A stretch of 64,000 nt of DNA from Pempheris klunzingeri. Taxonomy: Eukaryota; Chordata; Actinopteri; Acropomatiformes; Pempheridae. Of the stretch, positions 12,043 to 45,510 are shown one piece after another. Position 1 is the stretch's first letter. The number at the start of each line of letters is the position of its first letter. Position numbers and translations under genes: made by a program. Location: contig NC_092028.1 in the NCBI RefSeq assembly GCF_042242105.1, positions 14,121,338 to 14,185,337 on the forward strand. The letters run 5' to 3'. The notes below the pieces were generated by a model. It ran no database searches. It worked only from the letters and a program-made list of their open reading frames with translations, and had not been told where the DNA came from.

Positions 12043-12491
12043 ATGTTCCCTGTAACTCTGATACTTTTGCTGGCAGCTGGATCCTGTGAGGAGCTTTCAC
12101 TGGATTCACACTAATACACACATTAGCTACATAGAAAAGTCAGATGAATGATGGAGATAATGTTGATTTATGTTTCCACAGGTGTGAACAGTATTGATCT
12201 CCTCCAGCCAGACTCAGTGGCTGTTCAGCCTGGACAGTCTTTGACCATCACCTGTCAGGTGTCTGGTTATTCTCTGACTGATGACAACTATGCAGCAGGT
12301 TGGATCAGACAGCGTGAAGGAAAACAAATGGACTGGATTTTTCATCGTAGGGGTGGAGGAGACTTCTACCAAAATGATGCTCTGAAGAACAAGTTCCTTT
12401 ACCACACACACACCTCTACTCGTTCAGTGACATTAACAGGACAGAATCTGCAGCCTGAAGACACAGCTGTTTATTACTGTGTCCGTCAGCC
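12043..12491 (+). CDS. IGHV: IGHV family C V gene, intact
   Basis: Leader 12043-12085, ending GGATCC-T, 96-base intron, V exon 12182-12491. FR1 is [24 protein letters not shown] and CDR1 GYSLTDDNY. FR2 is WIRQREGKQMDWI, with Q-M-D in place of the common G-L-E before the Trp. CDR2 is HRRGGGD, and FR3 is unusual in its YHTHTSTRS run. It ends YYCVRQ. The RSS is CACAGTG (12492-12498), 23 bp, ACAAATACT (12522-12530). This intron-bearing gene shows the ancestral structure of the fused C genes at 16736 and 29557. Confidence 0.94.
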
Positions 12492-12530
12492 CACAGTGAT
12501 ACAAACCACCAACAGACCCGTACAAATACT

Positions 12531-13991: not shown

Positions 13992-14347
13992 ATGGCTTAC
14001 AGAAAGCTTACACTCGTAGTGGTTTCTCTGTTTGTTTTGACTGGTGGTGATAGTCAGACCATAACATAGTCTGAACCAGCAGTTAGAAAACCTGGAGAAT
14101 CCCACAGACTCACCTGCACAACATCTGGATTTAGCTTTAGTAGCTCAGTTTGGAACTGGGTCAGACAGGCTCCTGGAAAAGGACTGGAGTGGATCGCTTT
14201 CATACACACAGCTAGTAGTCCTATCTATTACTCCCAGTCAGTCCAGGGTAGATTCACCATCTCCAGAGACGACTCCAGCAGTAAAGTCTATCTGCAGATG
14301 AACAGTCTGAAGACTGAGGACACAGCAGTGTATTACTGTGCCAGAGG
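13992..14347 (+). pseudogene. IGHV: IGHV family D V gene, one nonsense codon
   Basis: A single exon runs from ATG ([19 protein letters not shown]) into FR1 without a leader intron. TAG at 14067-14069 stands where the copy at 37281 has GAG (Glu), just after DSQTIT. The remainder is intact: CDR1 GFSFSSSV with WNWVRQ, CDR2 [10 protein letters not shown]3 RDDSSSK, YYCARG. The RSS is still good: CACAGTG (14348-14354), 23 bp, ACAAAAACT (14378-14386). It could rearrange but would not give protein; it may be a recent knock-out or an allele. Confidence 0.93.
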
Positions 14348-14386
14348 CACAGTGAGAGACAATAACAGGATAGTGTTACAAAAACT

Positions 14387-16245: not shown

Positions 16246-16735
16246 AACTTTTGTTTAATATATCTTTTTATTTATACTACTACTTCTTTTTAATTCCTAT
16301 GTGCTTATGTCTCTGATATTACTGTCATTTTATTTAATTTTTATTTTATTTATCTAAAATTAAAAAGTTCTGCATCATATGATATTCAGTTTTTGTACAT
16401 TAACCGTCACTAATTTCATGAGTTTTAAGACATATTTATACAGTAAATCATATCATAGCAGCGCCACAGGTTTGTTAAATTATCTGTCTAGATGGTGAGT
16501 GTGTATAAGATCTTTCATAGAAATATGTTCTGTAAAAAATGCTTTAAAAAGGCATTCTCTACCAGTCGGCTCTAGAGGACACAGTGTTAACACCTTCAGT
16601 TAATTCTAATGATATTCAAAAGATTATTCAACAACATGCAAATAAAGGGCACTCATAAGGAAGTGAAGTGTATTTCTCTGTGAGTGTCAGTGAGAGGACA
16701 GAAGAGCTCACATCAGTTCAGCTTCAACATCAACC

Positions 16736-17088
16736 ATGTTCTCTGTAGCTCTGATGCTGCTGGTTTCCTTTTCCACAGGTGTGAACAGTATTGATCTCCT
16801 CCAGCCAGACTCAATGGCTGTTCAGCCTGGACAGTCTTTGACCATCACCTGTCAGGTGTCTGGTTATTCTCTGACTGATAACAACTATGCAGCAGGTTGG
16901 ATCAGACAGCGTGAAGGAAAACAAATGGACTGGATTTCCCATCAGTGGGGTGGAGGTACGCTTCATCAAAATGATGCTCTGAAGAACAAGTTCAGCTACA
17001 GCAGAGACACTTCTGCTCGAACAGTGACTCTAAAAGGACAGAATCTGCAGCCTGAAGACACAGCTGTTTATTACTGTGTCCGTCGGCC
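16736..17088 (+). CDS. IGHV: IGHV family C V gene with fused, intronless leader
   Basis: One exon encodes MFSVALMLLVSFSTG followed by VNSIDLLQPDSMAV. The first 27 bases match a C/B leader exon. The next 16 (GTTTCCTTTTCCACAG) are the polypyrimidine tract and AG of the old intron, now translated as the signal-peptide core. Everything downstream is normal: CDR1 GYSLTDNNY, FR2 REGKQMDWI, CDR2 HQWGGGT, YYCVRR. The RSS is CACAGTG (17089-17095), 23 bp, ACAAATACT (17119-17127). It has the only octamer type here that is a perfect ATGCAAAT apart from family E. The frame stays open past the RSS by chance. Confidence 0.95.
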
Positions 17089-17127
17089 CACAGTGATACA
17101 AACCACCAACAGACCTGCACAAATACT

Positions 17128-28513: not shown

Positions 28514-29556
28514 ACTTCCTCTATTTACCACCACCATTGGCAACATTCAGTTGTCTCACTATCGCTTGTTTTGTAAAACTGAGTGTGATTAATTATCACT
28601 GATTTAAATTCTGAGTAGTGACTGAATATTGAAGTCTTATTTTGTTTCATTTGACTCAATTTTAAAGTGATTTATGACTGACACAAATATAGTGGGAAAA
28701 GCAGAAAATCAGAAAATATGAAAATGTTATTCTGTGTTTTTTCCCTGGAAGTGATGTTAACAGACGTATAAAAAGACACATGTCTTCATAACGACATGCA
28801 TGAAGACCATACATGTGACACAAACATTTACATCTACAAATAAAAAGCTTCCACCTGATTTGCAGGTTGTACACAAAATTATGAAAATAGTTTTCCTGCA
28901 CATCAACAAATCTACAAAAACATCCAAAACTGCCAAAGAAAAAAAATGTTGTAATGTAGCTAATGCAGATGTGACAAAGAACTCTTTTCCAGCTGAACTC
29001 AGATCCATCAAGTCTCCTGCTTCTTTGAAATCTCATCTTAAAACTTTTGTCTTTTGTCTTCTTTTTATTTATACTACGTCTGTCCCTATCTTATTACATT
29101 TGTATTCTTTTTAATTCCTATGTGCTTATCTCTTTGATATTATTGTCATTTTATTTTATCTTTATTTTATTTATTTAACATTAAAAAGTTCTGCATCATA
29201 GGATATTCAGTTTTTGTACATAAACCGTCACTAATTTCATGATTTTTAAGACATATTTATACAGTAAATCATATCAAAGCAGCGCCACAGGTTTGTTAAA
29301 TTATCTATCTAGATGGTGAGTGTGTATAAGATCTTTCATAGAAATATGTTCTGTAAAAAATGCTTTAAAAAGGCATTCTCTACCAGTCGGCTCTAGAGGA
29401 CACAGTGTTAACACCTTCAGTTAATTCTAATGATATTCAAAAGATTATTCAACAACATGCAAATAAAGGGCACTCATAAGGAAGTGAAGTGTATTTCTCT
29501 GTGAGTGTCAGTGAGAGGACAGAAGAGCTCACATCAGTTCAGCTTCAACATCAACC
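28514..29556 (+). promoter_or_regulatory. Spacer with LINE fragment and C promoter
   Basis: Paralogue of 15512-16735. Perfect octamer ATGCAAAT at 29457-29464, 100 bases before the start codon. Confidence 0.72.
28950..29075 (+). mobile_element. LINE 3' coding fragment (L2/CR1-like), degraded
   Basis: Translates as NSFPAELRSIK then LKSHLKTFVF, like the last residues of L2/CR1-type reverse transcriptases. Same relic as at 16120. Only the tail is present, and the call rests on motif memory. Confidence 0.45.
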
Positions 29557-29909
29557 ATGTTCTCTGTAGCTCTGATGCTGCTGGTTTCCTTTTCCACAGG
29601 TGTGAACAGTATTGATCTCCTCCAGCCAGACTCAATGGCTGTTCAGCCTGGACAGTCTTTGACCATCACCTGTCAGGTGTCTGGTTATTCTCTGACTGAT
29701 GACAACTATGCAACAGGTTGGATCAGACAGCGTGAAAGAAAACAAATGGACTGGATTTCCCATCAGTGGGGTGGAGGTACGCTTCGTCAAAATGATGCTC
29801 TGAAGAACAAGTTCAGCTACAGCAGAGACACTTCTGCTCGAACAGTGACTCTAAAAGGACAGAATCTGCAGCCTGAAGACACAGCTGTTTATTACTGTGT
29901 CCGTCGGCC
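29557..29909 (+). CDS. IGHV: IGHV family C V gene with fused, intronless leader
   Basis: Same single-exon structure as at 16736: MFSVALMLLVSFSTG runs directly into VNSIDLLQPDSMAV, with the former intron tail as signal-peptide codons. CDR1 GYSLTDDNY, FR2 WIRQRERKQMDWI (Arg for Gly in the turn), CDR2 HQWGGGT, YYCVRR. The RSS is CACAGTG (29910-29916), 23 bp, ACAAATACT (29940-29948). The frame is intact. The Arg at the FR2 turn is unusual and may affect folding or VH-VL pairing. Confidence 0.95.
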
Positions 29910-29948
29910 CACAGTGATACAAACCACCAACAGACCTGCACAAATACT

Positions 29949-35331: not shown

Positions 35332-35780
35332 ATGTTCCCTGTAACTCTGATACTTTTGCTGGCAGCTGGATCCTGTGAGGAGCTTTCACTGGATTCACAC
35401 TAATACACACATTAGCTACATAGAAAAGTCAGATGAATGATGGAGATAATGTTGATTTCTGTTTCCACAGGTGTGAACAGTATTGATCTCCTCCAGCCAG
35501 ACTCAATGGCTGTTCAGCCTGGACAGTCTTTGACCATCACCTGTCAGGTGTCTGGTTATTCTCTGACTGATAACAGCTATGCAACAGGTTGGATCAGACA
35601 GCGTGAAGGAAAACAAATGGACTGGATTTTTCATCGTTGGGGTGGAGGAGACTTCTACCAAAATGATGCTCTGAAGAACAAGTTCCTTTACCACACACAC
35701 ACCTCTACTCGTTCAGTGACATTAACAGGACAGAATCTGCAGCCTGAAGACACAGCTGTTTATTACTGTGTCCGTCAGCC
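35332..35780 (+). CDS. IGHV: IGHV family C V gene, intact
   Basis: Leader 35332-35374, 96-base intron, V exon 35471-35780. CDR1 GYSLTDNSY, CDR2 HRWGGGD, the same YHTHTSTRS stretch in FR3, V end YYCVRQ. The RSS is CACAGTG (35781-35787), 23 bp, ACAAATACT (35811-35819). Duplicate of the gene at 12043, offset about 23.29 kb. Confidence 0.95.
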
Positions 35781-35819
35781 CACAGTGATACAAACCACCA
35801 ACAGACCTGCACAAATACT

Positions 35820-37280: not shown

Positions 37281-37636
37281 ATGGCTTACAGAAAGCTTAC
37301 ACTCGTAGTGGTTTCTCTGTTTGTTTTGACTGGTGGTGATAGTCAGACCATAACAGAGTCTGAACCAGCAGTTAGAAAACCTGGAGAATCCCACAGACTC
37401 ACCTGCACAACATCTGGATTTAGCTTTAGTAGCTCAGTTTGGAACTGGGTCAGACAGGCTCCTGGAAAAGGACTGGAGTGGATCGCTTTCATACACACAG
37501 CTAGTAGTCCTATCTATTACTCCCAGTCAGTCCAGGGTAGATTCACCATCTCCAGAGACGACTCCAGCAGTAAAGTCTATCTGCAGATGAACAGTCTGAA
37601 GACTGAGGACACAGCAGTGTATTACTGTGCCAGAGG
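37281..37636 (+). CDS. IGHV: IGHV family D V gene, intronless leader, intact
   Basis: A single exon from [32 protein letters not shown] is split nowhere. The stretch TCTCTGTTTGTTTTGACTG before GGTGATAG looks like a former intron end (polypyrimidine tract with the AG lost). CDR1 [10 protein letters not shown]2 [17 protein letters not shown]2 [10 protein letters not shown]3 [15 protein letters not shown]. The RSS is CACAGTG (37637-37643), 23 bp, ACAAAAACT (37667-37675). It is the intact counterpart of the nonsense copy at 13992. The open frame beyond the RSS is chance. Confidence 0.94.
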
Positions 37637-37675
37637 CACAGTGAGAGACAATAACAGGATAGTGTTACAAAAACT

Positions 37676-40784: not shown

Positions 40785-41214
40785 ATGATCAGACCTGATT
40801 AGTTGGTTGTTTTTCTCACCCTGTCAATTAATTGTGCAGGTAAGACAGACCTCCTGGTAAAAACAATATGGCTGCATTCCAGTAACTAATGAGATGTTTG
40901 AATGTCTGTAGGTACTGAGGGTCAAACACTGACTGAGTCTGTACCAGTGGTTAAAAGGCCTGGAGAGTCCCACAGACTGACCTGCACATATTCTGGGTTT
41001 GGCAGCAATTACTGGAATGCTTGGATCAGACAGGCTGCTGGAAAAGGACTGGAGTGGGTTGCAACTATCAGTGATGACGGTAGCAGCATCTACTACTCTA
41101 ACTCCGTTCAAGGCCGCTTCACCATCTCCAGAGACAACAGCAGGCAGCAGGTGTATCTGCAGATGAACAGCCTGAAGACTGAAGATTCTGCTGTTTATTA
41201 TTGTGCCAGAGACT
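40785..41214 (+). pseudogene. IGHV: IGHV family F V gene, nonsense codon in leader
   Basis: The leader exon 40785-40839 keeps phase 1 and a donor (GTAAGA) but reads MIRPD then TAG (40800-40802), then LVVFLTLSINCA. No other ATG is available in frame. Intron 72 bases, V exon 40912-41214 fully open: [22 protein letters not shown]1 [11 protein letters not shown]2 [14 protein letters not shown]. The RSS is CACAGTG (41215-41221), a 22-base spacer and ATAAAAAAC (41244-41252), a weaker nonamer than at 26218. It is probably dead, unless the stop is an allele or assembly error. Confidence 0.88.
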
Positions 41215-44962: not shown

Positions 44963-45510
44963 ATGATGGACTGTAGGACAGGACTGCTGCTCTTAACTAT
45001 CTGCTGGGCAGGTGAAGATTTTCTCTTATCTCGATGTGACATTTTTCATTTGTGCTGCCAGCATAACACATTACATGCATATCTTTTTTGGTCTTACAGG
45101 TGTTGATGGACAGGTGAAGATATCCACAGACCTAAACCTTACACAGTTTATACTTGTGTCAACAGCATATTTCACTTGATGTGTATTCATTCTCTTGACA
45201 GGTGTTGATGGTCAGACTCTGACTGAATCTGAACCAGCTGTTAAAAGGCCTGGAGAATCCCACAAATTGACCTGTACAGCCTCTGGATTCACATTCAGCG
45301 ACTACTATATGCACTGGATCAGACAGGCTCCTGGAAAAGGACTGGAGTGGGTTTCAAGGATTGAGAGTGGCAGTGGTAGCAGCAAACTCTACTCTCAGTC
45401 AGTCCAAGGCCGCTTCACCATCTCCAGAGACAACAGCAGACAGCAGCTGTATCTGCAGATGAACAGCCTGAAGACTGAAGATTCTGCTGTTTATTATTGT
45501 GCCAGAGACT
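44963..45510 (+). CDS. IGHV: IGHV family A V gene, double acceptor, RSS spacer collapsed
   Basis: Leader 44963-45011, intron 190 bases, V exon 45202-45510. The intron is a head-to-tail join of two A introns. A first acceptor (CTTACAG at 45093-45099) is followed by 14 bases and a second donor at 45114; using that mini-exon would shift frame and hit TGA. CDR1 [11 protein letters not shown]2 IESGSGSSK, core intact. The RSS is broken: CACAGTG (45511-45517), only 5 bases, ACAAAATAC (45523-45531). Coding-competent but unlikely to rearrange. Confidence 0.93.

Follow-up and report, generated by a model that had tools for sequence, protein, structure and literature searches.

Germline heavy-chain V (IGHV) genes have probably lost their leader intron imprecisely here, through a deletion at TG[C/T]TG that left the end of the intron as coding sequence, with the intronless gene then copied to four places. 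The genes lie in an immunoglobulin heavy-chain (IGH) V array, of which the window, meaning the whole stretch of DNA analysed (64,000 nucleotides; G000:C17:14121338-14185337 of a 646-Mb genome whose V sequences and locus look fish-like), is a part; for counts, the window was taken together with 140 kb of flanking sequence, giving a locus of 204 kb. V-like matches in this locus number 93, fragments included, and all 93 are on the + strand. Divided by best query among families whose names, A to D, were coined in this analysis, they comprise 49 A, 33 B, 8 C and 3 D. Thirteen J-like segments, also on the + strand, lie downstream of the V array (C17:14240031-14293455), and the V genes thus have the position upstream of J segments and the single orientation by which an IGHV gene is recognised. 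Two J-like sets (C17:14264431-14265987 and 14291899-14293455) are near-identical and lie ~27 kb apart, which suggests that the J region, and perhaps the constant region too, has been duplicated.

The intronless genes belong to family C. When a pattern for the C-family V start was run against the genome with up to three mismatches allowed, it matched at six places, all exact; four are intronless and two (genes 12043 and 35332) have an intron, making the intronless form 4/6. The remaining two of the eight C matches are 3' fragments at C17:14200294 and 14226458, each consisting of an FR3 end and RSS adjoining unrelated sequence. A genome search with the exact 25-mer across the junction gave four hits, against none for its reversed control; an earlier sequence-only reading of the window had reported two such genes, and both are as it described, but the genome holds four. 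Because the four copies have differing flanks, an assembly error was ruled out as the source of the intronless form.

In genes 16736 and 29557, the frame is open from the ATG through the leader and into FR1 without an intron, reading MFSVALMLLVSFSTGVNSIDLLQPDS..., as the sequence-only reading had proposed. Where the usual split leader would be, there is an open frame, and it continues in both genes to the second Cys (17075 and 29896), after which comes a 23-spacer RSS. The V-set domain of Pfam is matched at 51.8 bits against a cut-off of 26, and the domain, the second Cys and the RSS (CACAGTG-23-ACAAATACT, directly after the V region) are those expected of an IGHV gene. The two genes are composed as follows.

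16636-16643, + strand: octamer ATGCAAAT, at -100 relative to the ATG of intronless gene 16736
16654-16659, + strand: TATA-like CATAAG, by consensus reading weaker than the TATAAA of the intron-containing C genes
16680-16685, + strand: weak candidate 5'UTR splice donor TCT/GTGAGT (score 5.1, approximate donor matrix)
16736-16757, + strand: leader start derived from the leader exon (MFSVALM..), the best split being after base 22-23
16758-16778, + strand: probable exonised intron end TGCTGGTTTCCTTTTCCACAG, coding L-V-S-F-S-T and the first base of Gly, by its match to the C35332 intron end
16779-17088, + strand: remainder of the leader and V region, open, with the second Cys at 17075 (Pfam V-set 51.8 bits)
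17089-17127, + strand: RSS CACAGTG-23-ACAAATACT, heptamer at 17089
29457-29464, + strand: octamer of the second intronless C gene
29557-29578, + strand: leader start of the second intronless C gene
29579-29599, + strand: probable exonised intron end of the second intronless C gene
29600-29909, + strand: remainder of the leader and V region of the second intronless C gene, open
29910-29948, + strand: RSS CACAGTG-23-ACAAATACT, heptamer at 29910

The leaders of all four intronless genes are identical at 43/43 nt. All four V regions are open and intact in their RSS-proximal sequence; the copies are recent, and intact frames thus tell little about selection. The octamer is perfect in each, lying 100 nt before the ATG in three copies and 573 nt before it in the fourth (V start C17:14210742), where a 468-bp insertion separates the promoter from the ATG within the 5'UTR. 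The insertion begins with TG, ends with CA and has a 5-bp repeat, AGCTC, in the manner of a solo LTR. It also carries a donor candidate scoring 7.6, and this copy may therefore behave differently from the others.

The two intron-containing C genes have a 43-nt leader exon, a 96-nt intron of the form GTGAGG...CACAG and the same heptamer as the intronless genes.

12043-12085, + strand: leader exon of the intron-containing C gene C12043
12086-12181, + strand: 96-nt leader intron of C12043
12182-12491, + strand: V exon of C12043, RSS heptamer at 12492
35332-35374, + strand: leader exon of the second intron-containing C gene, C35332
35375-35470, + strand: 96-nt leader intron of C35332, the nearest match to the exonised tail
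35471-35780, + strand: V exon of C35332, RSS heptamer at 35781

The last 16 bases of the intronless leader, GTTTCCTTTTCCACAG (16763-16778 and 29584-29599), agree without gaps at 13/16 positions with the intron end of C35332 and at 12/16 with that of C12043, as against 4/16 with the end of the leader exon. No shuffle in 100,000 reached 13/16, and the tails of other V genes in the locus reach at most 10/16. In the 204-kb locus, exactly five stretches of this length attain 13/16, one in each of the four intronless copies, the fifth being the C35332 intron end. A match to the 16-mer with three mismatches is nevertheless expected by chance about once in the window alone (mean 1.09; three or more such matches in 13/100 shuffles), and the weight of the match comes from its homologous position. 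The C12043 intron does end in GTTTCCACAG at 12172-12181, where the sequence-only reading had placed it, but that reading had aligned it with a gap; the ungapped alignment fits best and needs no inserted bases.

Extending the comparison to 21 bases gives 17/21 for the C35332 intron end and 7/21 for the exon end. When the leader is divided between exon and intron, the best split falls after base 22-23, accounting for 36/43 bases with C35332 and 35/43 with C12043; the split is inside a TG[C/T]TG microhomology common to both sides, which blurs the junction. The sequence-only reading had counted 27 leader-exon bases and then 16 from the intron; by this split, the share of the intron that is now coding is probably nearer 21 bases. 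Their product would be L-V-S-F-S-T, one residue longer than the VSFST originally read. Between ATG and V codon 1, the intronless genes have 45 nt and the intron-containing ones 141 nt, a net loss of 96 nt, or exactly one intron length; the frame and the 18-residue length of the signal peptide are consequently kept. With the intron absent, the flanking exon altered and relatives that retain the intron, the genes show the pattern of imprecise intron loss. The best fit remains the proposal that the leader lost its end along with the intron's donor and branch region, while the intron tail stayed in frame.

V genes typically have a leader intron, and the intron-containing state is accordingly taken as the older one. 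In the ancestor proposed here, a C-family gene whose leader exon was 43 nt long and whose phase-1 intron measured 96 nt, a single deletion would have fused the leader exon at about its 22nd base with the intron some 21 bases short of its end, at TG[C/T]TG. Most of the intron, its donor included, would have been lost together with the 3' end of the exon, and the polypyrimidine tract and acceptor would then have been read as the codons L-V-S-F-S-T-G. The intronless gene would subsequently have been copied to four places, and its FR1 exchanged with intron-containing relatives by conversion.

The last of these steps is suggested by the mosaic composition of gene 16736. Across FR1-CDR1 it differs from C12043 at 2/117 positions, the two intron-containing genes differing from one another at 4/117, whereas in CDR2-FR3a it differs from C12043 at 20/78 and from C35332 at 19/78; the contrast between 2/117 and 20/78 is significant (Fisher P 2e-7). 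The start of its leader has 3/22 differences from the intron-containing genes. Near-identity with them begins at the last nine intron bases and runs through FR1-CDR1, and at intron positions -10 to -21, 4/12 bases differ. Upstream of the ATG, the last 54 nt are 89% identical to C12043 and 56 nt are 82% identical to C35332, and no further similarity was detected at E 0.01 within 900 nt. Genes 12043 and 35332 had been offered as the ancestral state; they do keep the intron, but the differences in CDR2-FR3a and the leader, and flanks that part at 54-56 nt, make this too strong. Given such mosaic identity, they are relatives and not a proven parent. The simplest reading is that FR1 underwent gene conversion when the intronless junction was already in place.

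The junction might instead be the product of microhomology-mediated recombination or conversion between two C paralogues, one supplying the promoter and leader start and the other the intron end and V exon; the product would work alike. We consider this origin somewhat unlikely. That near-identity is confined to the last nine intron bases through FR1-CDR1, with a diverged leader start and CDR2-FR3a and unrelated flanks past 54-56 nt, is what such an exchange might leave, but the piece on the promoter side is itself of C type, as the 89% identity of the proximal 54 nt to C12043 indicates, and a deletion followed by FR1 conversion accounts for the same pattern. Moreover, the 4/12 differences at intron positions -10 to -21 fit a junction older than the conversion. 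A deletion with later conversion thus remains our preferred reading.

The predicted leader of the intronless genes, MFSVALMLLVSFSTGVNS, has 18 residues. Its hydrophobic peak is 2.84, compared with 3.12 for the intron-containing C leader and a range of 2.64-3.48 over the seven other leaders compared, and the residues at -3 and -1, judged by eye, are V and S, as in the intron-containing C genes. We infer that it is a plausible signal peptide. Transcription usually starts ~30 nt after a TATA box, and the TATA-like box at -82 would place the start ~50 nt before the ATG. The message would need no leader splice, and translation would yield MFSVALMLLVSFSTGVNS.

It is also conceivable, though we think it unlikely, that the intronless copies have no function and were carried along as the locus was duplicated. 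Their TATA-like box is weaker, one of the four has an insertion in its 5'UTR, and single-exon leaders of chicken TRGV1 were judged unlikely to work by SignalP (PMC10972964). Against this stand open frames and intact RSS-proximal sequence in 4/4, a perfect octamer at -100 in three and at -573 in the fourth, and a leader hydrophobicity within the range of the other leaders compared.

A poorer prospect is that the fossil acceptor is still used, a 5'UTR donor (the GT at 16680, or the insertion donor of the fourth copy) being spliced to CACAG/GTG with removal of the ATG, leaving the leader untranslated. The donor TCT/GTGAGT at -56 scores 5.1, a branch-like CTGAT occurs in the leader, and the fourth copy has its 7.6 donor; on this approximate donor matrix, canonical donors of the locus score 6.8-8.2. 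Both intron-containing C genes hold 5'UTR donors of their own (5.6 and 5.7) without evident need of them, the transcription start suggested above would be at or just downstream of the donor at 16680, and the spliced product would be without a signal peptide. We regard this use of the acceptor as improbable. The sequence-only reading had itself named splicing from an upstream leader exon as the case that would tell against it; a scan that recovers the known leaders of both intron-containing C genes gave no candidate leader within 1,690 nt upstream of each of the four intronless genes, and an alternative leader exon in that interval was rejected.

Finally, precise RNA-mediated intron loss, with the leader end later substituted toward likeness to an intron end, would explain a net loss of exactly one intron length, but it is very hard to credit and was rejected, because the clean exon-exon junction that precise loss or a retrocopy leaves is absent (exon end 4/16 and 7/21, intron end 13/16 and 17/21) and both the promoter octamer and a germline RSS are present.

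Two A-like genes are likewise intronless, a pair unrelated to the C case and absent from the sequence-only reading.

13992-14386, + strand: A-like intronless gene with a stop in FR1, RSS heptamer at 14348
37281-37675, + strand: A-like intronless gene, open copy, RSS heptamer at 37637

A 32-base pattern from their leader, allowing up to three mismatches, occurs at these two places only in the genome, and in both the usual acceptor CAG reads CTG. Their leader ends score higher, with gaps, against A-family intron ends (25.5) than against exon ends (20.0), a difference to be read with the fact that 91 stretches of the locus equal the best 21-base ungapped score. Over the locus as a whole, 74 matches, the four intronless genes counted in, yield 25 different tails that precede a V start and end in AG. 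In the V frame, 23/25 are open, with a mean hydropathy of 1.67, as compared with 0.73 and 0.85 in the other frames (the latter with stops in 20/25) and -0.08 for random codons; placed behind the first seven leader residues, 17/25, one of which is the intronless tail itself, reach a peak of at least 2.0, but related tails are not independent, and these statistics are thus descriptive. In each of five light-chain-like V genes inspected by eye in two 10-kb stretches of contig 16, a small sample, the end of the leader can be seen, as can a GT donor and an AG acceptor. We put forward only tentatively that V leader introns, being of phase 1 with 3' ends mostly open and hydrophobic, are primed to yield a signal peptide on in-frame deletion, that family C and the A-like pair are two independent cases and that the same route may explain intronless V genes in other loci, chicken TRAV1 and TRGV1 among them.

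Leaders elsewhere in the V array vary in other ways. In the A gene at 44963-45260, a second copy of the intron start is present, and a 14-nt mini-exon candidate (45100-45113) lies between two introns; skipping it would give a normal leader and including it a frameshift to a stop. The B genes 46454 and 53922 have altered acceptors, TTTTAGCTG and TTTTAGCAG, in place of TTTAACAG. At 490 and 2451 there are B-type V regions without a recognisable leader, a form that recurs further upstream in the locus. The leader candidate (40785-40802) of an A-like gene whose V start is at 40914 reads ATG ATC AGA CCT GAT TAG, so that the signal peptide is cut short by a stop, although the frame of the V exon is open.

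Chicken TRAV1 (V-alpha1) and TRGV1 (V-gamma1) genes lack a leader intron (PMC10972964, PMC8456604). As here, leader and V domain occupy one exon in a single V family while other families keep the intron; the chicken genes differ in belonging to bird T-cell receptor loci rather than to an antibody heavy-chain locus, and the passages describing them give no intron-end origin. The poor SignalP scores of single-exon TRGV1 leaders (PMC10972964) are a caution for the intronless C leaders as well. Human TRGV10 and TRGV11 are also described, in a title cited by PMC8456604, as V genes whose leader intron is not spliced. There the intron is still present, whereas the C genes have lost it and read through in an open frame. 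Compared with typical two-exon fish IGHV genes, the intronless genes share the octamer, the V-set domain and the 23-RSS and differ in having no division into exon 1 and exon 2. Imprecise intron loss is a defined class in which an intron is lost together with an insertion or deletion in the flanking exon and the frame is kept (PMC4443532). The account of that class is a plant study; here, the retained intron end codes for a predicted signal peptide in a multigene immune family.

The sequence-only reading had called an exonised splice tract serving as a signal peptide unusual. The intron-end route does make a neat and unusual variant, although chicken V-alpha1 and V-gamma1 set a precedent for the intronless V gene itself (PMC10972964, PMC8456604). 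In the literature covered, which was mostly outside subscription journals, no report was recognised of heavy-chain V genes that lack the intron, nor of a V gene whose signal peptide was recruited from an intron end, and such thin coverage makes this weak evidence of novelty. With intronless TRAV1 and TRGV1 in chicken and imprecise intron loss already described, we judge the novelty to be moderate.

If expressed, the intronless C genes would represent a concrete step in the loss of a V leader intron, in which a splice signal becomes a targeting signal. An intronless V architecture that we had met in the literature only for chicken T-cell receptor loci is now found in an antibody heavy-chain locus. 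Such V genes would escape annotation tools for which a split leader is obligatory, or be mis-called by them, and unspliced reads from these genes would resemble genomic contamination.
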